Source: Halanaerobium saccharolyticum subsp. saccharolyticum DSM 6643 (lineage in GTDB: Bacteria > Bacillota > Halanaerobiia > Halanaerobiales > Halanaerobiaceae). Taken from it: a stretch of DNA of 64,000 nucleotides. Position numbers and translations under genes: made by a program. Below are positions 2 through 23,187 of this stretch, one piece after another (positions within the stretch are counted from its first letter, which is position 1; each line of letters opens with the position of its first letter). The notes under the pieces were generated by a model. The model searched no databases. It worked only from the letters and a program-made list of their open reading frames with translations, and was not told where the DNA came from. The stretch covers positions 682,001 to 746,000 of the forward strand of contig NZ_CAUI01000005.1 in NCBI RefSeq assembly GCF_000350165.1, given 5' to 3'.

Positions 2-526
2 GCGGCAATGTCACTGCTGCAGTCAGAAGATTATATTATAGCCTGTGAAGGTGATGTAGAAGGCGCAATGTCAATGTTAGCTCATCAGGCCGTTGGTGCA
101 GAAACACCATTTTTGGCAGATTTATCACAAGTTGATCTCGAAGAAGACTATGCTCTTTTATGGCACTGTGGAGTAGCTCCCTGTAATTTATGGGATGGCA
201 AATGTAATATTGCTCTTGATAGTTATTTTGCTGGAGGTAGAGGAGTTACAGCAGACTTTGTAATGAAAAGTGATGATTTTTCTGTACTAAGATTTGATTC
301 TGCTCAGGGAAAATATCGAGTCTTTTTACAAAAAGGTGAAGGTATTGAAATGGAAAAAGAATTAAAAGGTACCTACTTTAAAGGTAGATTTGAAAAGAAT
401 ATTAATGAAGTCCTGGATATGGTAGTCAAAAAAGGGGTAGCACATCATATTTCTGTAGTTTATGGAGATTACACAGCAGCTTTTGAGATATTTGCAGATC
501 TTAAAAATTGGGAAGTAATTAGATAA
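2..526 (+). CDS. Sugar isomerase, L-fucose/L-arabinose isomerase-like (C-terminal part)
   Basis: The reading frame is open from the window edge, so the gene begins upstream and only about 175 C-terminal residues are visible. The piece resembles the C-terminal region of the fucose/arabinose isomerase superfamily, which interconverts aldoses and ketoses in the cytoplasm using a divalent metal. Visible signatures are CEGD near the start, a plausible metal and substrate segment, and WHCG about 40 residues later, whose histidine is the expected metal ligand. It is followed by a sodium symporter, a sulfoquinovosidase-like GH31 enzyme, a kinase and an aldolase. I therefore infer that it may isomerise sulfoquinovose to 6-deoxy-6-sulfofructose. 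Family assignment is fairly good, but substrate is inference from neighbours. The DUF4867 protein in the same cluster is a competing candidate for the isomerase step. Confidence 0.7.
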   Translation, partial: AAMSLLQSEDYIIACEGDVEGAMSMLAHQAVGAETPFLADLSQVDLEEDYALLWHCGVAPCNLWDGKCNIALDSYFAGGRGVTADFVMKSDDFSVLRFDSAQGKYRVFLQKGEGIEMEKELKGTYFKGRFEKNINEVLDMVVKKGVAHHISVVYGDYTAAFEIFADLKNWEVIR

Positions 527-561
527 CTAATATAATTTTATTATAAAACTAAAAAATACAT

Positions 562-583
562 ACAATTAATCATGATTAATTGT
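562..583. promoter_or_regulatory. Perfect 22-nt palindrome, candidate operator
   Basis: The sequence at 562-583 reads identically on both strands, centred on CATG, with 11-nt half sites. It lies about 125 nt before the symporter gene and just upstream of a TATAAT at 639-644. Its position and symmetry suit a dimeric repressor, most simply the ROK protein encoded at 7579. The link to that regulator is inference. No run of T follows, so it is not an ordinary terminator for the upstream isomerase. Confidence 0.5.
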
Positions 584-707
584 TATTAGCTTAAGTTGAA
601 AAAATTTAATTGGAAAAAAATAATAATTTAGCCCTCTCTATAATAATAATAAGAATAATACAAGATGAGAGTTCAAAAAATACTCATTATTAACAGGGGG
701 AATAAAA

Positions 708-2510
708 ATGGATATAACTTACACATTAGTAACAGCAGCGATTTTTATGGGATTGGTTGCCTGGGTTTCTTATATAAAAACAAAAGGTGAAGTTTCAGAT
801 TCAGATGGATATTTTTTAGCTGGTAGAGGTTTAACTGGAATTTTTATTGCAGGTTCATTACTTTTGACAAATTTATCGGCAGAACAATTAATTGGCTTAA
901 ATGGCCAGTCATATCGTTTAAACTTATCAAATATGGGCTGGGAAGTTACAGCTGGAGTAGCAATTATTATCTTTGCTCTTTATCTACTTCCTAAATATTT
1001 AAGAGGGGCTTTTACAACCTTACCTGGTTTTTTAAGTGATCGTTATGATGAGGGTGTAAGAAGACTTTCGGTATATTTATTTATGATGGGTTATGTTTTT
1101 GTAACTATCCCTTCAGTCTTATATTCCGGCTCACTTGCAGTCTTAAGATTATTTGATGTACCAACATTATTCAATATATCTTATGCACAATCAGTCTGGG
1201 TAGTAGTCTGGATTGTAGGAATTATCGGATCAATTTATGCAATCTTTGGAGGCCTTAAGGCGGTTGCAGTTTCTGATACAATTAACGGAATGGGACTTTT
1301 AATAATTGGTATTTTAATGCCGATCCTTGGCTTTGCCGCGCTTGGTGATGGCAGTGTGATAGAGGGTATGAAATATATTACAATTAATCACGCAGATAAG
1401 TTAAATGCAATCGGTGGTCCCAATGATTCAATTCCATTTGGAACCTTATTTACCGGGATGATTTATGCTAACTTATTTTACTGGGGTACCAACCAGTATG
1501 TAATTCAGAGAACTTTAGGTGCTAAAGATCTGGCTCAAGGTCAGAAAGGTGTTATCATTACAGGATTCTTTAAAATCTTAGTACCATTTATGATGATGAT
1601 TCCTGGAGTTATTGCCTTTCACCTTTATGGAGCCGATATGGCCTCAGTTGACTTAGCTTTTCCAACCTTAGTCAGTGATTTATTACCAACTGCCTTATCT
1701 GGTTTCTTCCTAGCTGTGCTTTTAGGAGCGGTCTTAAGTTCATTTAACTCACTTTTAAACAGTGCTGCTACAATGTTTGTTTTAGATATTTATAAACCAC
1801 ATTTTAATCCAGATGCAGATGATGCAAAGCAGATAAAAGTAAGTAAGATTTTTGGAATTATTGTTGCTCTGATTTCCTTTGTAGTTTCTCCAATGCTGAT
1901 GCACGCCCCAGATGGAGTTTGGGATTTAATTAGAAGTTTCACCGGTTTTTTCAATATCCCAATTATAGTTCTTGTAATGGTTGGAGTTTTAACCAGAAAA
2001 GTTCCTGCAAAAGCAGCTAAAATCGTTGTCTATTTCCACGTAGTTACATATTATATGCTGGTTTGGGGTCTGGAATCATTATTTGGCTGGTCAGTACCAA
2101 TTCACTTTGTTCATGTTTACTTTATTCTTTTCTGGACAGAGGTTGCAATGATGCTTGCTATAGGTAAAATGTCACCTAAAAAAGAAGGCTGGAGCTATCA
2201 GAGTAAAGCTAGGGTTGATATGAAACCATGGAAATATTCACTATTAACATCAGTTGTTTTAGGATCAGCAATTATCTTTACTTACCTATTATTCTCTAAA
2301 ATAGGGCTTGCTTACCCACATGCAACAGTTTCTCCAAATTTCTGGAAATCAATAGTCATATTACTTGGTTTTACAGGAGTTGCAGCTTATTTAAGTGTTA
2401 ATACTTTATATGATAAATATAAAAATTATATCTTAGAACAGCAGCGAAAAGAAGTTATCGATTCCGAATCTGAGGTCTACGAAGATGTTCTTGAGCAGGA
2501 GGCATTATAA
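708..2510 (+). CDS. Sodium/solute symporter (SSS family), probable sulfoquinovose or glycoside importer
   Basis: This 600-aa protein has many hydrophobic segments across its whole length and belongs to the sodium:solute symporter family, whose members import sugars, anions or amino acids with sodium. The N-terminal helix is followed by a GYFLAGRGLTG segment and an unwound NLSAEQLIG region typical of SGLT-like proteins. A short acidic tail ends the protein. The start is ATG after a clear GGGGG ribosome site. Its stop codon overlaps the start of the GH31 gene by one base, so the two are translationally coupled. Being fused into a glycosidase, kinase and aldolase operon, it is probably the substrate importer. 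The specific substrate, sulfoquinovose or its glyceryl glycoside, is inferred from the GH31 enzyme. Sodium coupling fits a halophile. Confidence 0.85.
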   Translation: MDITYTLVTAAIFMGLVAWVSYIKTKGEVSDSDGYFLAGRGLTGIFIAGSLLLTNLSAEQLIGLNGQSYRLNLSNMGWEVTAGVAIIIFALYLLPKYLRGAFTTLPGFLSDRYDEGVRRLSVYLFMMGYVFVTIPSVLYSGSLAVLRLFDVPTLFNISYAQSVWVVVWIVGIIGSIYAIFGGLKAVAVSDTINGMGLLIIGILMPILGFAALGDGSVIEGMKYITINHADKLNAIGGPNDSIPFGTLFTGMIYANLFYWGTNQYVIQRTLGAKDLAQGQKGVIITGFFKILVPFMMMIPGVIAFHLYGADMASVDLAFPTLVSDLLPTALSGFFLAVLLGAVLSSFNSLLNSAATMFVLDIYKPHFNPDADDAKQIKVSKIFGIIVALISFVVSPMLMHAPDGVWDLIRSFTGFFNIPIIVLVMVGVLTRKVPAKAAKIVVYFHVVTYYMLVWGLESLFGWSVPIHFVHVYFILFWTEVAMMLAIGKMSPKKEGWSYQSKARVDMKPWKYSLLTSVVLGSAIIFTYLLFSKIGLAYPHATVSPNFWKSIVILLGFTGVAAYLSVNTLYDKYKNYILEQQRKEVIDSESEVYEDVLEQEAL

Positions 2511-4519
2511 TGAAGATTATAGAAGAAAAAAATTCATTTAAAATTGAATATAATTCCAAAATTTTAATTGAACACAGCCAGCAATCTCCTTTTGCTTTTG
2601 CCGGCTCAGGTGATGCTGAATATAAAATGTATAGAGGTAATTTTGAGATAGAAGATTATTTAGAAAGCAGAGTACCACTGAAATATTTTCAAATAGAAGA
2701 AGAAGCCAATTATTCTCTAATCACCTTAAAAAGCAGCAGAGAAGGAGGGCTCAGCCTTAAGATTAAGGCTGGGCTTGTAGCTGGCAGGTTAAAACTTGAG
2801 TTTTTAGAAAGCTCCAGTGGGATTAATCGACTCTGGTTGAGATTAGCTGCAGATCAAGAAGAAAAAATATATGGTTGTGGTGAACAGCTTTCATATTTTA
2901 ATCTGAGAGGAAAAAACTTTCCCATCTGGACCTCTGAGCCTGGAGTTGGCAGAAATAAAGAAACATATACAACCTGGCAGGCAGATGTCAAAGATAAAGC
3001 GGGTGGTGACTATTATACTACCAATTATCCGCAGCCAACTTTTATTTCTACCAAAAAATATTACTGTCATTTAGAAAGTACAGCTTATCAGGACTTTAAC
3101 TTTAAAAATGATGATTTTCATGAACTGGAAGTCTGGAACATTCCTGATTATCTGCTTTTTGAAACAGGTGAAAGTTATTTAGAATTAGTAGAAAAACTGA
3201 CAGCTTATCTAGGCAGACAGCCTGAACTACCAGAATGGGTCTATAATGGACTTATACTGGGTATCCAGGGAGGTACAGATTTTGTATTAGAACAGAAAGA
3301 AAAATTAAAAGAAAATGGAGTTGAGTTATCAGCTCTCTGGTGTCAGGACTGGCAGGGTGTAAAGCATACATCTTTTGGTAAAAGATTAAGCTGGAACTGG
3401 GAATGGAACCAGGAGCTATATCCTGAACTTGATCAGAAACTAAAAGAATTAAAAGATGAAGATATTCGTTTTATGGGTTATATTAATCCTTATGTCTTAG
3501 AAGGTAAAAGCCTTTATCAGGAGGCAGCAGCCAACGATTATCTGGCCTATGACAGTGAGGGTGAGATTTATTTAGTAGACTTCGGTGAATTTTACTGTGG
3601 AGTTGTTGATTTCACCAACCAAGATGCTTTTAACTGGTATAAAGAAGTAATTAAGGAAAATTTAATAGATTTTGGTCTTGACGGTTGGATGGCTGACTTT
3701 GGAGAATATCTACCAACTGACTGTGTTTTAAGTAATGGTAAGAGTGCAGAAATTATGCATAATGCCTGGCCTGCAATCTGGGCCCAAGTTAATTATGAGG
3801 CGGTAAAAGAAGCAGGTAAATTAGAGGAAGTTCTCTACTTTATGAGAGCTGGTTTTACAGGCAATCAAAAATACTGCACCTTAATGTGGGCCGGAGATCA
3901 GAGTGTCAATTGGAGTCTTGATGATGGTCTGGCCTCAGTAATTCCTGCAGCTTTATCAATGGGAATGACAGGTTGTGGTCTGCACCATAGTGATATAGGT
4001 GGTTATACAAGTCTGCACGGCAATATTAGAACTAAAGAGTTATTTATGCGCTGGGCAGAAATGGGAGCCTTTACTCCAGTTATGAGAACTCATGAGGGTA
4101 ATAGACCTTCAGAAAACTTCCAGGTCTATAATGATCAAGAAGCAATTAATCATTTAGCTCGAATGACTAAAATCTATAAAAAACTAAGTAAATATATTAA
4201 AGCAGCAGTTAAAGAAAATACCGAAAAAGGAATACCAGTTCAGCGACCTCTTTTTATGCATTACGAAGCTGATCAAAAATGCTATGATCTTAAATATCAA
4301 TATTTGTTGGGAAGAGATCTATTAGTAGCACCCGTTTATCAAAAAGAAAAAGACGAATGGGAAGTATATTTACCCGAAGATAAGTGGATTCATCTCTGGA
4401 GCGGCAAAGAATTTAATGGAGGCGAAATTAAAGTTAAAGCTCCCCTGGGCCAACCCCCAGTATTTTATAGAAAAGATTCCGAATCCAGGCAGCTTTTTGA
4501 GGAGGTAGCTGAAATCTAA
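2510..4519 (+). CDS. Sulfoquinovosidase, GH31 (YihQ-like)
   Basis: This 669-aa GH31 alpha-glycosidase would release sulfoquinovose from sulfoquinovosyl glycerol, a breakdown product of plant and algal sulfolipid. From memory it aligns closely with E. coli YihQ from the catalytic barrel to the C-terminus, with a constant offset of nine residues. The nucleophile is D396 in WMADFGEYLPTD and the acid/base is D463 in MWAGDQ. The residues that contact the sulfonate in YihQ (Q288, R301, W304, Y508) correspond to Q279, R292, W295 and Y499 here, all identical. Those residues separate sulfoquinovosidases from ordinary alpha-glucosidases. There is no signal peptide, so it acts in the cytoplasm after uptake. 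The ATG overlaps the symporter stop codon, and its own stop overlaps the next gene. I am confident of the family and fairly confident of the specificity. Confidence 0.88.
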   Translation: MKIIEEKNSFKIEYNSKILIEHSQQSPFAFAGSGDAEYKMYRGNFEIEDYLESRVPLKYFQIEEEANYSLITLKSSREGGLSLKIKAGLVAGRLKLEFLESSSGINRLWLRLAADQEEKIYGCGEQLSYFNLRGKNFPIWTSEPGVGRNKETYTTWQADVKDKAGGDYYTTNYPQPTFISTKKYYCHLESTAYQDFNFKNDDFHELEVWNIPDYLLFETGESYLELVEKLTAYLGRQPELPEWVYNGLILGIQGGTDFVLEQKEKLKENGVELSALWCQDWQGVKHTSFGKRLSWNWEWNQELYPELDQKLKELKDEDIRFMGYINPYVLEGKSLYQEAAANDYLAYDSEGEIYLVDFGEFYCGVVDFTNQDAFNWYKEVIKENLIDFGLDGWMADFGEYLPTDCVLSNGKSAEIMHNAWPAIWAQVNYEAVKEAGKLEEVLYFMRAGFTGNQKYCTLMWAGDQSVNWSLDDGLASVIPAALSMGMTGCGLHHSDIGGYTSLHGNIRTKELFMRWAEMGAFTPVMRTHEGNRPSENFQVYNDQEAINHLARMTKIYKKLSKYIKAAVKENTEKGIPVQRPLFMHYEADQKCYDLKYQYLLGRDLLVAPVYQKEKDEWEVYLPEDKWIHLWSGKEFNGGEIKVKAPLGQPPVFYRKDSESRQLFEEVAEI

Positions 4520-5232
4520 TGACAATTACAAAAGAAAATGAATTAAAAGTTAGAGATTTAATCAGCCCTAAAGGCAGTCGCCTGGCGGAATTGAATAAAT
4601 TGAATCCCGGTCTGAATATCAAAGATGTTAGAGAAAATTCTTTTATTAAATACGGTAGATTAATTGAAAATTATGATCTGTCTGTAATAAGCAATTACCT
4701 GAAAGAAAAGACTGAAATTCCTGAAAGAGGAAATACTTATCAGCCAGATTTAGCTGCATTAGCAGGATCTCAAATAAAAAAAGATCTCGAAAATGATTTT
4801 TATGGTGAAATGCCGATAGAAATAGGATACTGTAATGGGAAAAACCAACATTTAGGTGCACTAGAATATCATAAAGGTGCAGAAATAAATATTGCAGTTA
4901 CAGATCTAATTTTACTTTTAGGAAAAGTTCAGGATATTGAAAATGGCAAATATAATTCCGAAAATGTTGAGGCTTTTTATCTTAAAAAAGGTACGATAGT
5001 AGAAATTTATGGAACAACACTGCATTTTGCTCCCTGCAAAGTAGAAAAAGCAGGTTTTAAGTGTGCAGTTATTTTACCTGATCAGACTAATTTAGCCCTA
5101 GAGAAAAGTAAAAATGATGATTTTTTATTTGCTAAAAACAAATGGCTTTTAGCACATCCTGAAAATAAAAGAATGATTGAAAAAGGGGCTAAAGCAGCAA
5201 TTTATGGCCCGAATATTAAAATTGAAATTTAA
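4519..5232 (+). CDS. DUF4867 family protein, possible cupin-type sugar isomerase
   Basis: This 237-aa soluble protein belongs, by my reading, to DUF4867. The C-terminal half looks cupin-like. It has an EYHKGAEIN segment that could give a histidine and a glutamate to a metal, and about 60 residues later a TTLHFAPC segment with another histidine. Cupin proteins of this layout include sugar isomerases such as lyxose isomerase. The gene is coupled to the sulfoquinovosidase gene by a one-base overlap and precedes the kinase and aldolase genes. I recall DUF4867 proteins in reported Firmicutes sulfoquinovose clusters but cannot verify it here. A role as sulfoquinovose/sulfofructose isomerase or mutarotase is inference. 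The fucose-isomerase-like gene at the window start is the alternative isomerase. Confidence 0.6.
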   Translation: MTITKENELKVRDLISPKGSRLAELNKLNPGLNIKDVRENSFIKYGRLIENYDLSVISNYLKEKTEIPERGNTYQPDLAALAGSQIKKDLENDFYGEMPIEIGYCNGKNQHLGALEYHKGAEINIAVTDLILLLGKVQDIENGKYNSENVEAFYLKKGTIVEIYGTTLHFAPCKVEKAGFKCAVILPDQTNLALEKSKNDDFLFAKNKWLLAHPENKRMIEKGAKAAIYGPNIKIEI

Positions 5233-5272
5233 GAAATTATTAATAAGCTTATTTGCTGAGGAGTGATAGTAA

Positions 5273-6406
5273 ATGCCTTTAGAAAAAAATAGAGTAAGTT
5301 ATACTCAAAAAGCAAAAAATAGATTAGATAAAATTGAAACTAAAAATTTAAATCAGAATGTACTTTTTGGTTTTGATGGATTTATAGATAATATTTGGAC
5401 TCTTGTATCAGAAAGAAATTCAGTTGAGGATTATAAAGTTATGAATTCAATGCTGACTTTAAATCAAAGGATTAAAGATTCAGCTGGAGGCGGCCTCAGC
5501 ACAGAAATTTTAAAAAAAGATAAGAGAGCAGGGGGATTTAATGCCAATACTGCCCGAGTTTTAAATTATCTGGGGATTAATACAACCTTACTTTCGCTTT
5601 TTGGAGAAAAAGAAAATGATGAGGTTTTTAAAGATCTTGTCAAAGATTCGGAAATAATAAGTTTAGGAGATCCCTGCTCAGCTCAAATCTTTGAGTTTGA
5701 AGATGGTAAGCTGATGTTTCCAAATAATGAAAATATACGTAAAATGAACTGGAATCAGCTTAAAAATAAAGTTGGTTTAACTAAATTAATAGAAATTATA
5801 GATCAAGCTGATCTCCTTGCTTTTGGCTACTGGTCAAATATGCCTTATTATGACACAATAATTAAGGGAATTATAGAAGAAGTTATTCCAAAAATTAAAG
5901 ATAAGAAGAGAAAAATGTTTATGGATTTTGGCAATGTAAAAAAAAGAAGTAATTATGATCTGGCAGAATTTTCAAGGAGTCTGGGAGCTTTAGAAAAATA
6001 TTTTGAACTAACAGTAAGTTTAAATAGAACTGAAACTATTGATACTGCCGCTGCCTTAGGAATTGAAACTGAACTAGAAAAAAATAATTATATTAATATT
6101 GCTCAAGAAATCAGAAAAGAAATGGGAATCTCAAACTTTGTGGTTCATACCAATAATTTTGCTTTAAGTGTTAATGATTCAGGTGCTCAAAAGTTAGAAC
6201 AGCCTTACTGTGAAAATCCTGTTGTGACAACCGGAGCAGGAGATACTTTTAATGGTGGTTATATTTCGGCAATGATTATTTCTGATGACCCAGAAATCAG
6301 ATTGGCAGCAGCCAGTTCAACAGCAGGCTATTTTATCAGAAATGCTGAGCCACCTACTTTAGAACAGTTAAAGACTTTTTTAAAAGGCTATGAATCATTA
6401 TTTTAA
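5273..6406 (+). CDS. PfkB/ribokinase-family sugar kinase, candidate sulfofructose kinase
   Basis: This 377-aa protein is a carbohydrate kinase of the PfkB family. It shows the N-terminal GGFNANTARVLNYLG motif that closes on the sugar and the C-terminal TTGAGDTFNGG motif with the catalytic aspartate and anion hole. It is longer than the usual 300-340 residues, mainly through an extended N-terminus and a middle insertion. Its start is an ATG seven bases after a GAGGAG site. In the cluster it sits between the DUF4867 protein and the class II aldolase, as expected for a kinase that phosphorylates a ketose at C1 before cleavage. With the upstream sulfoquinovosidase, 6-deoxy-6-sulfofructose is the likely substrate. 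E. coli uses YihV, also of this superfamily, for that step. Family is secure, substrate is inferred. Confidence 0.75.
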   Translation: MPLEKNRVSYTQKAKNRLDKIETKNLNQNVLFGFDGFIDNIWTLVSERNSVEDYKVMNSMLTLNQRIKDSAGGGLSTEILKKDKRAGGFNANTARVLNYLGINTTLLSLFGEKENDEVFKDLVKDSEIISLGDPCSAQIFEFEDGKLMFPNNENIRKMNWNQLKNKVGLTKLIEIIDQADLLAFGYWSNMPYYDTIIKGIIEEVIPKIKDKKRKMFMDFGNVKKRSNYDLAEFSRSLGALEKYFELTVSLNRTETIDTAAALGIETELEKNNYINIAQEIRKEMGISNFVVHTNNFALSVNDSGAQKLEQPYCENPVVTTGAGDTFNGGYISAMIISDDPEIRLAAASSTAGYFIRNAEPPTLEQLKTFLKGYESLF

Positions 6407-6466
6407 TTTAACATAGAAAGTTATTTAATTTTAGAATTATATTTGATAATAATTAGGAGAGATAAA

Positions 6467-7300
6467 ATGATTACTTTAAAAGAAATTTTAGCAGGAACAG
6501 AAAAGGGCTATGCAATCGGCAATTTTAACGTACATAATATGGAATATGTTCAGGGCGTTGTTGAAGCTGCAGAAGCAGCTCAATCACCTGTAATAATTGC
6601 AATTACCGAAAGACCACTTAAATATTATGGTATTGATTATTTAATTAATACAGTTAAAGCAGCAGAAAAAAATTGCTCAGTACCACTCTGTCTGCATTTA
6701 GATCACGGTGACAATTTGGATATTGTATTTAAGTGTATCGAAGCAGGTTTTTCTTCCGTAATGTATGATGGATCTCATCTGCCAATTGAAGAAAATATAG
6801 CCAACACAAAAAAAGTAGTAGAGAAAGCAGCAGAATATGGTATTTATCCAGAAGCAGAATTAGGTAAGCTGCAGGGTATTGAAGATGGAAAAGAATCAAC
6901 AGAAAGTGCTTTAACTGATCCAGAAGAAGCAAAACGATTTGTTGACGAAACAGGAATTGCAGTTCTGGCAGTTGCAGTAGGAACAGCACATGGCTTTTAC
7001 GATGGAGAACCCAAATTAGATTTTGAAAGACTTAAAGCAATTAGAGAAAAAGTTGAGGTGCCGCTTGTACTGCACGGAGGGTCTGGAGTACCTGCTAAAA
7101 GTGTAAAAAAAGCTATAGATATTGGTATTTCTAAGGTTAATGTTGGTACAGAGTTAAAAGTTGCTTTTAACCAGGGAATCAAGGGAGTCTGGGAGGAAAA
7201 TCCAGATGAAATAGAATGTACAGCAATCATGGGAGCAGCAAGAGAAGGAATAAAAAATAAAGTTATAGAAAAAATTGATTTATTCCGTTCAAATCTGTAA
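6467..7300 (+). CDS. Class II (zinc) ketose-bisphosphate aldolase, candidate sulfofructose-phosphate aldolase
   Basis: This 277-aa protein is a class II aldolase of the fructose/tagatose-bisphosphate type. Visible motifs are LHLDHGD with a zinc histidine and the catalytic aspartate, a PEAELG segment, VGTAHG with another zinc histidine, and LHGGSG for phosphate binding with the third zinc histidine. I chose the ATG at 6467, six bases after AGGAGA, rather than an in-frame TTG at 6443. It closes the kinase and isomerase series, so it likely splits a sulfofructose phosphate into dihydroxyacetone phosphate and sulfolactaldehyde. E. coli uses YihT, a class I aldolase, for that reaction, so this would be a non-homologous replacement. 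A plain fructose or tagatose bisphosphate activity cannot be excluded. A terminator follows at 7362. Confidence 0.75.
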   Translation: MITLKEILAGTEKGYAIGNFNVHNMEYVQGVVEAAEAAQSPVIIAITERPLKYYGIDYLINTVKAAEKNCSVPLCLHLDHGDNLDIVFKCIEAGFSSVMYDGSHLPIEENIANTKKVVEKAAEYGIYPEAELGKLQGIEDGKESTESALTDPEEAKRFVDETGIAVLAVAVGTAHGFYDGEPKLDFERLKAIREKVEVPLVLHGGSGVPAKSVKKAIDIGISKVNVGTELKVAFNQGIKGVWEENPDEIECTAIMGAAREGIKNKVIEKIDLFRSNL

Positions 7301-7361
7301 TTAGAAATTTTGCTTACAATTCTTAATTTTTTAAAACACTAAAAATTAAATAATCAAATTC

Positions 7362-7392
7362 GGGGCTGTTTTATCTGGACAGCCTCTTTTTC
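7362..7392 (+). terminator. Rho-independent terminator after the aldolase gene
   Basis: An eight-base stem (GGGGCTGT with ACAGCCTC, one wobble pair) encloses a nine-base loop and is followed by a T-rich run. It ends the catabolic operon before the ROK gene, which therefore has its own promoter. Confidence 0.75.
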
Positions 7393-7422
7393 TTATTTAA
7401 AAAATATCTATATAAATAATTA

Positions 7423-7451
7423 ACATAAAAGAGGATTAAAAACTTTTATGT
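7423..7451. promoter_or_regulatory. Inverted repeat upstream of the ROK gene
   Basis: Nine-base perfect arms, ACATAAAAG and CTTTTATGT, are separated by 11 bases about 130 nt before the ROK start. No T run follows. It may be an autoregulatory operator. It is unlike the palindrome at 562-583, so the same protein need not bind both. Confidence 0.35.
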
Positions 7452-7578
7452 CTAATATATTATTAACAGTAAAGATTATTAAAAAAACATAAAAACATAA
7501 AAAATATAAAATAGGAGAAAGTTTAATTTATAATAAATTAAACTCTTTAATCTAACTGTATTTTCAAGGGGGAGAATA

Positions 7579-8775
7579 ATGTCAGGTATTAATATGTCAA
7601 ATGTTAAATTAAAAAATCGAAGTTCTATTCTTAAACTATTAAGAAATCAGGGTTCAATGTCCAGAAAAGATATATCTGAGAAAATTGGCCTTACAGCTGC
7701 AGCAGTAAGTAATTTAATCAGTGATCTGATTGCAGAAGATTTAGTTAGCGAAATAGGGGAAGTTGATAATGGAGTTAAAAAATCAGGAAGACGAGAAATT
7801 CTAATTGATGTAAATTATGATAAATACAGTGTAGTTGCTATTGATATTGGTATAGATTTCACTAAAATTGCAATTGGTAATCTAGCCGGGGAAATAAAGG
7901 ATTCAACTTTTGTAAAAACTAATAAGGAGATTTCTCCAGCAGAATTTTTAAAAGAGTTGGCCCAAAAAGTTATTACTTTTCTCTGGGAAAATAATCAGGT
8001 TAAAGATGATATACTTGGTTTTGGAGTTGGTATGATTGGTCTGGTTGATTCAAAAAAAGGTTTGAGCAAACATGCCTATGGCCTCTGGGATCAAGAAGTT
8101 AAAATCAAAGAAAAGCTAGAAGAACTTTTAGAAATGAAAGTTGTAGTAGACAATAATGTGCGAGCGCTAGCTTTAGCAGAAATCAATCGGAATGATCAAG
8201 TAACAGGAGATAATATATTATTTATTAAATATGGGCCGGGGATAGGTTCTGCAATTATTTTAAATAATGAAATATATTATGGTAGTAATAATATGGCTGG
8301 AGAAATTGGTCATATGATTATTGATAATCAGGGAGAAAAATGCCGCTGTGGGCGCAGAGGTTGTTTGGAGACAAAAATATCGCAGAAGGCAATAATTAAA
8401 TATATTGCAGATAATTGTTCAATAAAAATCGATAAAAATGGAAAAAATAAAGAGCTTGATTTAGAAAAAGTATTTACAGATTTAAAAAGCAGCTGTCAGC
8501 AGGAAATTTTAAATAATATCTCATTCAATTTAGCTTTATCTGTTGCAAATGTAATAGCTCTTTATGATCCCTGTAAAATAATTTTGCACGGTAAGCCTTT
8601 TGAATATCCTGACTTTCTAGAATCTTTAAAAACAAACTTTAATAAAATAATTCCTGAGATAGATTTACAAAACTTCATTATTGCAAGTAAGCTTAATGCT
8701 GGTTATATTAGTGGAATTTCTTTGGCAGTTGAAAGACTGTTTTATGATTTTGGAGGAAAAGTTATTAAAGAATAG
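7579..8775 (+). CDS. ROK-family transcriptional regulator
   Basis: This 398-aa protein has an N-terminal winged helix-turn-helix (about residues 10-60, with the SRKDISEKIGLTAAAVSNLI recognition region) and a ROK sugar-kinase-like domain. The ROK part shows the AIDIGIDFTKIAIG phosphate motif and the zinc motif CRCGRRGCLE near residue 260. Proteins of this type (NagC, XylR, Mlc) repress sugar genes and let go when they bind the sugar or its phosphate. It follows the sulfoquinovose-type operon after a terminator, in the same direction, so it is probably the local repressor. The start follows a GGGGGAG ribosome site by five bases. An in-frame ATG at 7594 is less well placed. The ligand is not deducible from the sequence. 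Confidence 0.88.
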   Translation: MSGINMSNVKLKNRSSILKLLRNQGSMSRKDISEKIGLTAAAVSNLISDLIAEDLVSEIGEVDNGVKKSGRREILIDVNYDKYSVVAIDIGIDFTKIAIGNLAGEIKDSTFVKTNKEISPAEFLKELAQKVITFLWENNQVKDDILGFGVGMIGLVDSKKGLSKHAYGLWDQEVKIKEKLEELLEMKVVVDNNVRALALAEINRNDQVTGDNILFIKYGPGIGSAIILNNEIYYGSNNMAGEIGHMIIDNQGEKCRCGRRGCLETKISQKAIIKYIADNCSIKIDKNGKNKELDLEKVFTDLKSSCQQEILNNISFNLALSVANVIALYDPCKIILHGKPFEYPDFLESLKTNFNKIIPEIDLQNFIIASKLNAGYISGISLAVERLFYDFGGKVIKE

Positions 8776-15486: not shown

Positions 15487-16296
15487 TTGAGTATTTTAGA
15501 AACTAAAAATTTATCACTGGCCTATGACAAAGATAAAATAATTGATAACCTTGACTTAAAGATACCAGAAGGCGAAATTACTATTTTTATTGGTGGTAAT
15601 GGTTCTGGTAAATCAACCCTACTTAATTCTATGGCCCGACTTTTAAAACCCGTGGAGGGTTCTGTAGAACTGAAGGGAGAAGATATTAATCAGCTTTCAA
15701 CCAAAAAAGTGGCAAAAAAGCTTGCATTTTTACCTCAAAGCTCTACTATTCCAGAGGGAATTACCGTCCGTAAACTTGTTGAACAGGGAAGATATCCCTA
15801 TCAAAAATGGTATCAAGCCTCAAGCAGTGAGGATCATAAGATAGTTGAAAAGGTTTTAAAAGACACAGGTCTTTTAGAATTTGCCAACCGAGATTTAAGT
15901 TCACTCTCTGGTGGGCAGCGTCAGAGGGCCTGGTTGGCAATGGTCCTGGCTCAGGACACAGAAATAATTTTACTAGATGAGCCAACTACCTATCTTGATC
16001 TCTCCCATCAGGTTGATCTGCTTGACTTACTCTATGAATTAAACAAGAAAGATCAGCGGACAATTATTATGGTCCTGCATGATTTAAACTTAGCCTGCCG
16101 CTATGCCGATCATATAGTGGCTATTAAAGATAAAGGAGTTTTTGCTCAGGGAAAACCGGAAGAAGTTATTGATGAAGAAGTGATTAAAGAAGTTTTTGAT
16201 TTAAACTGTCAGATTGTTTCTGACCCTGTATTTGGAACACCTCTCTGTATTCCAACTGGAAAGAACAAAAAGAACAAATTGAATCGAGCAATATAA
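15487..16296 (+). CDS. Iron-siderophore ABC transporter ATPase (FhuC/FecE type)
   Basis: This 269-aa ATPase has Walker A GGNGSGKST, the signature LSGGQRQRAW, Walker B IILLDEPTTYLD and a switch histidine in VLHDLN. It powers the preceding FecCD importer from the cytoplasm. The start is TTG at 15487, seven bases after AAAGGAGGT. Longer in-frame versions would reach back into the second permease gene and contain no homologous sequence. A terminator 9 bases after the stop ends the four-gene operon. Confidence 0.92.
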   Translation: MSILETKNLSLAYDKDKIIDNLDLKIPEGEITIFIGGNGSGKSTLLNSMARLLKPVEGSVELKGEDINQLSTKKVAKKLAFLPQSSTIPEGITVRKLVEQGRYPYQKWYQASSSEDHKIVEKVLKDTGLLEFANRDLSSLSGGQRQRAWLAMVLAQDTEIILLDEPTTYLDLSHQVDLLDLLYELNKKDQRTIIMVLHDLNLACRYADHIVAIKDKGVFAQGKPEEVIDEEVIKEVFDLNCQIVSDPVFGTPLCIPTGKNKKNKLNRAI

Positions 16297-20958: not shown

Positions 20959-23187
20959 ATGAAATTCGATACTTTAAAAATGAAGGGTCAAAGATGGAAA
21001 GAAGAAGTTGATGTGAGAGATTTTGTTCAGCAAAATTATACTCCTTATACTGGTGGAGCTGATTTTTTAGAAGGTCCCACCAAAAGAACGGAAGCAATCT
21101 GGAATCAGAGTTCAGAGCTTCTTAAACAAGAAAGAGAAAATGATGGTGTACTCGCTATAGATACAGAAACAGTTGCAGATATTAATGCTTATGATGCTGG
21201 TTATATAGATCAGGATAAAGAAATAATTGTTGGTCTACAGACGGACCAACCTTTAAAAAGAACTTTAAATCCCTATGGTGGGATTAGAATGGCTCGTCAG
21301 GCAGCAGAAGCTTATGGCGAAGAAGTAGATCCCGAAATAGATGAGATTTTTACTAAATATAGAAAGACACATAATGATGGTGTTTATGATGCCTATACAC
21401 CAAAAATTAGAGAAATTAGACGCTCAGGTGTAATTACCGGTCTGCCTGATGCTTACGGCCGCGGCAGAATTATTGGTGATTATAGAAGAGTTGCACTTTA
21501 TGGTATAGATAGATTAATTGAAGCTAAAAAAGAAGATAAGGCAAATTTAAAGAGTCCAATGACCGAAGAAACTATTCGCTTAAGAGAAGAAGTTAGCGAT
21601 CAAATCAAAGCTCTTAAAAGGTTGAAGGGACTTGGAGAAACATATGGCTGTGATCTTTCGCGACCTGCTAAAAATGCTGAAGAAGCAGTACAGTGGACTT
21701 ATCTTGCTTATCTTGGCGCAATTCAGGAAAACAATGGAGCGGCAATGTCCTTTGGTCGAGTTGCAGAGTTCTTTGATATTTATTTTGAAAAAGATATTGA
21801 AGCTGGCTTACTAACTGAAAAAGAAGCACAGGAGATAATAGATGATTTTGTAATTAAATTGAGACTTGCCAGACAGCTGAGAACTCCAGCTTATAACGAA
21901 CTATTCAGTGGAGATCCACTCTGGGTAACAATTGTTTTAGGTGGAATTGGAATTGATACCAGACCACTTGTTACAAAAACTAGTTATAGAATTTTAAATA
22001 CTTTATATAACTTAGGTCCTGCTCCAGAACCAAATTTAACAGTGCTCTGGTCAGAACAGCTGCCTGAAAGCTTTAAAAACTACTGCACTAAAGTTTCAAA
22101 AGACACAAGTTCACTGCAGTATGAAAATGATGATCTAATGCGCCTTAACTTTTCTGATGATTACGGGATCGCCTGCTGTGTTTCAGCAATGACACCCGGT
22201 AAAGATATTCAGTACTTTGGTGCTAGATGTAATCTTCCTAAAACACTGCTTTATTCCTTAAATGGTGGTAAAGATGAGGTCAGCGGAACCCAGGTAGGAC
22301 CGGAGTTTAAAGCTTATGAGGGTGATGTTTTAGAATATGATAAAGTTATGGAGAATTTTGACCGCTTCCTTGACTGGTTAAGCGAAAAATATGTAGATGC
22401 TTTAAATATAATTCACTTTATGCACGATAAATATGCTTATGAGGCAGTACAGATGGCCCTGCACGATACTGAAGTTCAGAGGATTATGGGTTTTGGTGTA
22501 GCTGGTCTTTCAATTATTGCCGACTCCTTAAGTGCAATAAAATATGCAGAAGTTAAACCAATCAGAAATGAAGAGGGTCTAATTGTTGATTTTGAGATCA
22601 ATGGAGATTTCCCTAAGTACGGTAATGATGATGATCGTGTAGATAAGTTGGCTGTAGAAGTAGTTAAACTATTTATTAATAAGCTAAAACAGCATCAGCT
22701 CTACAGAGATGCGGTTCATTCCATGTCAGTACTGACAATTACTTCGAATGTTGTTTATGGTAAGAAAACAGGTGCTACACCCGATGGACGTAAAGCAGGA
22801 GAAGCCTTTGCACCTGGAGCAAATCCAATGCACGGTAGAGATACATCTGGTGCATTAGCTTCACTTAACTCGGTTGCTAAAATACCTTATGAGTACTGCC
22901 AGGATGGTATTTCTAATACATTTTCTATTGTGCCAGAAGCTCTTGGTAAAACTGAAACTGCTCAGCAGAATAATTTAACTTCAATATTGGACGGTTATTT
23001 TGATCAGGGTGCACATCATTTAAATGTTAATGTTTTAAGACGAGAAACTTTACTTGATGCAGTTGAGCATCCTGAAGAATATCCTCAGCTGACAATCAGA
23101 GTTTCCGGTTATGCTGTTAACTTTATTAAATTAACAGCAGAACAGCAGCAGGAAGTTATAGCAAGAACATTCCATAAGTCAATATAA
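20959..23187 (+). CDS. pflB: Pyruvate formate-lyase (formate C-acetyltransferase)
   Basis: This 742-aa glycyl radical enzyme converts pyruvate and CoA into acetyl-CoA and formate in fermentation. The adjacent catalytic cysteines are C406 and C407 in the [11 protein letters not shown] segment; such a pair is a mark of pyruvate formate-lyase rather than the dehydratase or sulfonate lyase members. The radical-bearing glycine is G717 in RVSGYAVNF close to the C-terminus. The length fits the family, which is about 740-760. The start is ATG after GGGAGG. It is transcribed from behind a ZTP riboswitch and from a second promoter, and is followed by its activase gene. Confidence 0.96.

Follow-up and report, generated by a model that had tools for sequence, protein, structure and literature searches.

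A predicted sulfo-EMP2-like sulfoquinovose operon in Halanaerobium with a kinase of the prokaryotic ketohexokinase family

Few organosulfur compounds are as abundant as sulfoquinovose (SQ), the sulfur sugar of plants and algae. SQ routes running through anaerobic fermenters set the supply of DHPS to sulfonate-respiring, sulfide-producing bacteria. The described system closest to the locus reported here is sulfo-EMP2 of Bacillus urumqiensis and Megamonas rupellensis, in which the isomerase SqvD belongs to PF02952, SqvB to DUF4867, the kinase SqiK to PF00365, and the aldolase SqiA to PF01116 (PMC9594981). When sulfo-EMP2 operates in anaerobes, sulfolactaldehyde is reduced to DHPS (PMC9594981, PMC12890257). 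A link between Halanaerobium and SQ degradation was not found in the open-access literature.

The window, meaning the whole stretch of 64,000 nucleotides that was analysed, comes from a 2.87-Mb Halanaerobium genome and opens within a gene cluster that appeared to form a self-contained, sulfo-EMP2-like SQ operon with a non-orthologous kinase and with an isomerase and an aldolase that branch separately. A probability of roughly 0.8 was assigned to this reading. The beginning of the cluster was read from a 20-kb upstream piece of the same contig (L003; window coordinate = L003 position - 17500). Annotation of the cluster proteins with Pfam and NCBIfam profiles gave mutually consistent results, and the features are as follows.

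L003:14534-15442, upstream of the window: AEC-family carrier (PF03547)
L003:15769-16632, upstream of the window: reductase of the YihU superfamily (PF03446 and PF14833)
L003:16692-18026, start ~808 bases upstream of the window: complete isomerase gene, 444 aa (PF02952, SqvD/SftI-like)
2..526, + strand: 3' part of the isomerase gene (last 174 residues), the window's first ORF (PF02952)
708..2510, + strand: SSS-family sodium:solute symporter, PRK10484 type (Pfam/NCBIfam)
2510..4519, + strand: GH31 sulfoquinovosidase, YihQ (NCBI YihQ model, contact and catalytic residues)
4519..5232, + strand: DUF4867 protein (SqvB/SftX), putative SQ or SF mutarotase or ring-opening metalloprotein (PF16161)
5273..6406, + strand: ketohexokinase-family kinase, predicted sulfofructose 1-kinase with a ribokinase fold (PF25270)
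6467..7300, + strand: class II aldolase, predicted SF-1-phosphate aldolase (PF01116)
7362..7386, + strand: terminator-like hairpin (10 pairs and a T tract) at the end of the catabolic operon, the strongest such match, of a kind equally frequent in shuffled sequence
7534..7554: palindrome TTAATTAAA-N3-TTTAATTAA in a degenerate form with 3 mismatches, ahead of the ROK gene, weak by itself
7579..8775, + strand: ROK-family regulator, predicted repressor of the cluster (Pfam/NCBIfam)

The gene order is exporter, reductase, isomerase, Na+ symporter, YihQ, DUF4867 (SqvB), kinase, class II aldolase, and then the ROK gene. All genes, positions, and strands listed for this region in a first-pass annotation were recovered from the ORFs and the Pfam and NCBIfam matches. 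Its suggestion that a C3 sulfonate reductase and an exporter might lie upstream was borne out once the upstream sequence was read, both genes being located directly before the isomerase gene. The fucose-isomerase-like gene that it had placed before the GH31 gene is present, with the window holding only the C terminus of the 444-residue product. Stop and start codons overlap at the symporter/YihQ and YihQ/DUF4867 junctions, a pattern expected of a single operon. For the aldolase, an ATG at 6467 with a ribosome-binding site was taken as the start in preference to a TTG further upstream. Neither a transaldolase or transketolase nor a glycyl-radical DHPS enzyme was found among the cluster ORFs of the window and the upstream piece. 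Base composition gave no sign of recent horizontal transfer, the GC content being 33.2% for the cluster and 33.3% for the remaining window. Shortly 5' of the cluster, a spermidine/putrescine-like ABC importer is followed by genes resembling those for adenine deaminase and nucleoside phosphorylase (L003:6147-12423), with no evident link to the cluster.

The same enzyme set was found in H. kushneri (L015) and in G005, a genome from another Halanaerobiales family (L016). These sister clusters contain ROK, reductase, exporter, isomerase, importer, YihQ, SqvB, kinase, and aldolase genes; the order of exporter and reductase varies, and ROK is the first gene in both. Identities of the cluster proteins to the two relatives were 59 to 92%, with 53 to 55% for ROK. 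YihQ and the kinase occurred together in 2/12 Halanaerobium genomes and in 3/38 genomes of the order Halanaerobiales, so the trait is patchy. A contig search with a single kinase returned no match, and a search with a 4-sequence alignment, in which two patterns were used, returned H. kushneri and one MAG at 39%; the narrowness of this search means that absence elsewhere is weakly supported. The G005 yihQ gene (L016:10200-12238) encodes 624 aa, and the expected C-terminal ~50 residues follow directly in another frame, which is a frameshift or a sequencing error.

The GH31 protein scored 1027 bits against the NCBI YihQ model (cut-off 553) and aligned over its full length to the solved sulfoquinovosidases 8r56 and 6pnr and to YihQ (5aed). 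In the alignment to 5aed, Q279, R292, W295, and Y499 correspond to YihQ residues 288, 301, 304, and 508, the sulfonate contacts of that enzyme, at an offset of 9 that is constant in gap-free blocks. The catalytic residues D396 and D463 (nucleophile and acid/base) are conserved. Three control GH31 proteins from other clusters, 27 to 29% identical, have the catalytic residues and lack the Q/R/W set. The earlier statement that all four contacts are kept at offset 9 was therefore confirmed by the alignment, with the controls in support. Another Halanaerobiales YihQ (46-47%), in G007 (L017:1546-12844), has Gln replacing the contact Arg; its neighbors are an MFS_2 importer, an ABC importer, a PfkB kinase, a xylose-isomerase-like protein, and a DRL-type oxidoreductase, and the pathway differs.

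The DUF4867 protein matched PF16161 (E = 3.8e-75) and PDB entry 9gyy (E = 3e-64). Its metal-ligand motifs, E-x-H-x3-E at 116-122 and TTLH at 166-169, match those reported for the solved B. megaterium protein. The sole NCBIfam match of the isomerase was the sulfoquinovose isomerase SftI (NF048012; E = 1.3e-62), at 212 bits against a cut-off of 700, and a phmmer comparison with the PDB gave no match. The acidic residue, Asp, and His that are the metal ligands of the FucI family are kept at the places conserved in SqvD, at an identity to sulfo-EMP2 SqvD of 27 to 28%. In the tree, which like that of the aldolase was built from a small sample (14-17 sequences) and midpoint-rooted, the isomerase formed a clade (100/100) with one protein of genome G314, apart from the YihQ-linked Firmicutes SqvD. 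Lineages without YihQ linkage lay between the Halanaerobiales isomerase and Firmicutes SqvD. The G314 protein is the nearest outside relative, at 54% identity, and its gene adjoins an MFS_2 importer gene and a YihQ gene split across two contigs (whole locus L090:1159-3917 and L105:13966-15003), which supports SQ as the substrate of the G314 isomerase. No ketohexokinase-family kinase was found in the G314 genome. Isomerase relatives also occur in GH31 clusters whose GH31 enzyme lacks the sulfonate contacts. Two other Firmicutes (L091:2646-11725, L093:2371-11176) have a conserved cluster of a GH31 gene of this kind, a class II aldolase, a kinase, ROK, an SqvD-like isomerase, and an ABC importer.

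For the aldolase, the best PDB sequence matches were the SFP aldolases YaSqiA of Yersinia aldovae and HpSqiA of Hafnia paralvei (8q57, 8q58). Identity was 47 to 48% to the FBA and GatY-type aldolase of its own genome versus 37 to 43% to Firmicutes SqiA. In the tree it fell on the FBA/tagatose-bisphosphate side of the family, apart from YaSqiA and HpSqiA and also outside a clade (100/100) of five YihQ-linked Firmicutes SqiA. An FBA above the equivalog cut-off, a GatY-type aldolase, and two PfkA genes are present elsewhere in the genome, and hence the cluster aldolase and kinase are not the housekeeping enzymes.

The kinase matched PF25270, "prokaryotic ketohexokinase," with an E value of 6.1e-75 over positions 27-373 of 377, far above its match to PF00294. 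Among the Pfam profiles these were its two matches, with none to PF00365, the SqiK family, and phmmer gave no match to YihV at a threshold of 0.001. The catalytic GAGD motif is present (TTGAGDTFNGG at 319). A fairly confident structural model (pLDDT 83) had a ribokinase fold and superposed on YihV with Z 26.7 and rmsd 3.0 over 285 residues, a result tied with many ribokinase-like rows. The fold search did not single out YihV among the tied rows. Phylogenetically, the kinase fell in one clade (86/86) with its counterparts from both sister clusters, within a small PF25270 subfamily; these copies, at the same place in the two other SQ clusters, were 62 to 63% identical. Plasmid-borne relatives were all haloarchaeal, at 29 to 34% identity, and PF00365 kinases were found in two other Firmicutes YihQ clusters (L047 and L050). 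The earlier label "PfkB-family" thus holds for the superfamily and was refined to the Khk family PF25270, the unusual part of the cluster. A second ketohexokinase-family kinase lies in an operon of ROK, ABC importer, kinase, and SIS-domain genes in the window's genome and in G005 (L020:4821-11503, L021:8128-14849), probably for another sugar.

A haloarchaeal ketohexokinase makes fructose-1-phosphate and is required for growth on mannitol and sorbitol (PMC11519228). It belongs by relatedness to the same PF25270 family and carries out ATP-dependent C1 phosphorylation of a ketohexose; the substrate of the characterised enzyme is fructose rather than sulfofructose (PMC11519228), and its gene lies outside any SQ cluster. 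Its activity on fructose C1 may serve as an analogue of the step needed from the cluster kinase. C1 phosphorylation of 6-sulfo-fructose is the ketohexokinase reaction with another C6 group, so recruitment would be chemically easy. What appears new here, as far as sequence can indicate, is a kinase drawn from the prokaryotic ketohexokinase family that is neither a PfkA-type SqiK nor a YihV. If true, SF phosphorylation by a ketohexokinase-family enzyme would represent a lineage new to this step. Pipelines searching for homologues of SqiK or YihV would miss it, and it would offer a natural test of a fructose C1-kinase accommodating a C6 sulfonate. The separate branching of both isomerase and aldolase from the YihQ-linked SqvD and SqiA of Firmicutes would apparently be a new aspect beside the kinase.

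One account of these differences is that Halanaerobiales built a sulfo-Embden-Meyerhof route independently, with isomerase, kinase, and aldolase each recruited in events distinct from those that supplied sulfo-EMP, sulfo-EMP2, and the hybrids; with YihQ and SqvB shared, this would be a third convergent version. Because the trees are small and midpoint-rooted, it is put forward tentatively, at just short of an even chance. A possible but less likely explanation is that the cluster is diverged sulfo-EMP2 of the published kind, in which the kinase was replaced once and the remaining differences reflect fast divergence, a matter of ancestry that leaves the metabolic reading the same. The families of the isomerase, SqvB, aldolase, and reductase are indeed those of sulfo-EMP2 (PMC9594981, PMC11968277), and hybrids with exchanged enzymes are known, but in the trees (14-17 sequences, midpoint roots) neither the isomerase nor the aldolase falls within the YihQ-linked Firmicutes clades, and for the isomerase non-YihQ lineages lie in between.

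Against the SLA reductase model, the reductase scored 175 bits (cut-off 348), with a higher score for the tartronate-semialdehyde reductase model, and it matched 6sm7 of the YihU superfamily at E = 4e-38. A Lys aligns with Arg123 of YihU, a residue that contacts the sulfonate; four further family members in the alignment have no basic residue there, and a Lys at the same position is also found in the reductase of L050, a Firmicutes cluster whose genes are those published for sulfo-EMP2. The SSS symporter is the probable importer of SQ or an SQ-glycoside, and in H. kushneri an ABC importer (binding protein and permeases) stands in its place. The genome encodes two glycyl radical enzymes, one a pyruvate formate-lyase and the other, of PFL2 type, below the HpsG/HpfG cut-offs of the NCBI models. 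Further DHPS breakdown by a lyase or dehydratase was thus unsupported, neither enzyme being HpsG or HpfG by cut-off. A pyruvate formate-lyase gene at 21001-22761 of the window (TIGR01255, 1192 bits) fits a fermenter.

An exporter and a reductase also bear on the idea that YihQ frees SQ while the steps after it serve a different, or a non-sulfonated, sugar (e.g., a route on glucosides from aldose to ketose to ketose-1-phosphate) and the GH31 enzyme is promiscuous. They would hardly be sensible for a non-sulfonated sugar, because the second triose would then be fully usable. Although the isomerase, kinase, and aldolase stand apart from YihQ-linked Firmicutes SqvD/SqiA, and isomerase relatives accompany GH31 enzymes without sulfonate contacts, the GH31 enzyme is of YihQ type with all contacts, the DUF4867 protein is of SqvB type, the genes are co-conserved in three genomes, and YihQ adjoins the closest outside relative of the isomerase; such a route was judged unlikely. 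A route for another sulfosugar, for example from sulfofucose or sulforhamnose glycosides, was considered very improbable: the isomerase is in the fucose-isomerase family and the exact sulfosugar is not readable from sequence, but the contact residues of YihQ are the ones that serve SQ glycosides, and proteins of the SqvB/SqvD type accompany SQ pathways.

With at most one mismatch, the palindrome TTAATTAAA-N3-TTTAATTAA occurs at three sites in the 2.87-Mb genome, two of them before cluster genes. These two, at L003:14447 and 15676, precede the exporter and the reductase and include the only perfect copy in the genome. A copy with two mismatches at L003:15539 directly follows a perfect TTGACA-17-TATAAT promoter (12/12; 15501-15529). 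At two mismatches the palindrome is as common across the genome as its control, and weight was therefore placed only on the close copies and their repeated position. In H. kushneri, similar palindromes were found before the ROK gene and before the reductase gene, and in G005 before the reductase gene; since the palindrome was discovered by viewing these upstream regions, recurrence across species is the fairer test. Since each of the three clusters has a ROK gene and the palindromes recur, repression from the palindromes would be the simplest reading. Control of the cluster by ROK via the palindrome is likely on this motif evidence, and the predicted operator makes regulation directly testable.

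For the preferred reading, an SQ operon of sulfo-EMP2-like design, a scheme was drawn up in which substrates, transport direction, inducer, and redox partner are predicted from gene content, family membership, conserved residues, synteny, and motif placement. The Na+ symporter would import SQ or sulfoquinovosyl-glycerol, and YihQ would release SQ from SQ glycosides. SqvB (DUF4867) would probably aid ring opening or mutarotation, the SqvD-like metal-dependent isomerase would convert SQ to sulfofructose, and the ketohexokinase-family kinase would phosphorylate this at C1 to sulfofructose-1-phosphate. The class II aldolase would yield DHAP, kept for fermentation, and sulfolactaldehyde, which the YihU-like reductase with NADH would turn into DHPS, rebalancing redox, and the AEC-family carrier would export DHPS. 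The ROK repressor would bind TTAATTAAA-N3-TTTAATTAA next to two promoters, that of the reductase/isomerase operon and that of the exporter, until an SQ-derived inducer relieves the repression. The first-pass annotation had proposed a sulfo-Embden-Meyerhof route assembled from non-E. coli families in a fermentative halophile, and the upstream reductase and exporter, the genus Halanaerobium, and the recurrence in two genomes all lend this support at the sequence level.

Sulfo-EMP of E. coli (the yih cassette) shares with the cluster its intermediates, YihQ, a YihU-superfamily reductase, and a kinase of ribokinase-like fold, as in YihV. It differs in using a YihS-type isomerase and a class I YihT aldolase where the cluster has a PF02952 isomerase and a PF01116 aldolase, and by sequence YihV and the cluster kinase appear to be of different families. 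The first-pass contrast with E. coli in isomerase and aldolase classes was therefore right, but the combination is not new, having been published as sulfo-EMP2 (PMC9594981). The hybrid sulfo-EMP of Yersinia, Hafnia, and Vibrio (PDB 8q57-8q5a; PMC13372026) has a class II SqiA, likewise on the FBA/tagatose-bisphosphate side, but this aldolase is 43 to 44% identical and on a separate branch, and other isomerase/kinase sets are used there. Sulfo-TAL/SFT and sulfo-TK have SqvD and SqvB in common with the cluster, which is without transaldolase or transketolase. Sulfo-EMP2 shares YihQ, the PF02952 isomerase, DUF4867 SqvB, the class II PF01116 aldolase, and, in anaerobes, a DHPS-yielding reductase. 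It differs in its PF00365 SqiK, as opposed to PF25270 in the cluster, and in an isomerase (27-28%) and aldolase (37-43% identical) on separate branches; the cluster has an AEC exporter and a ROK regulator. The cluster would thus fall outside a strict definition of sulfo-EMP2 at the kinase, while being predicted to work like sulfo-EMP2.
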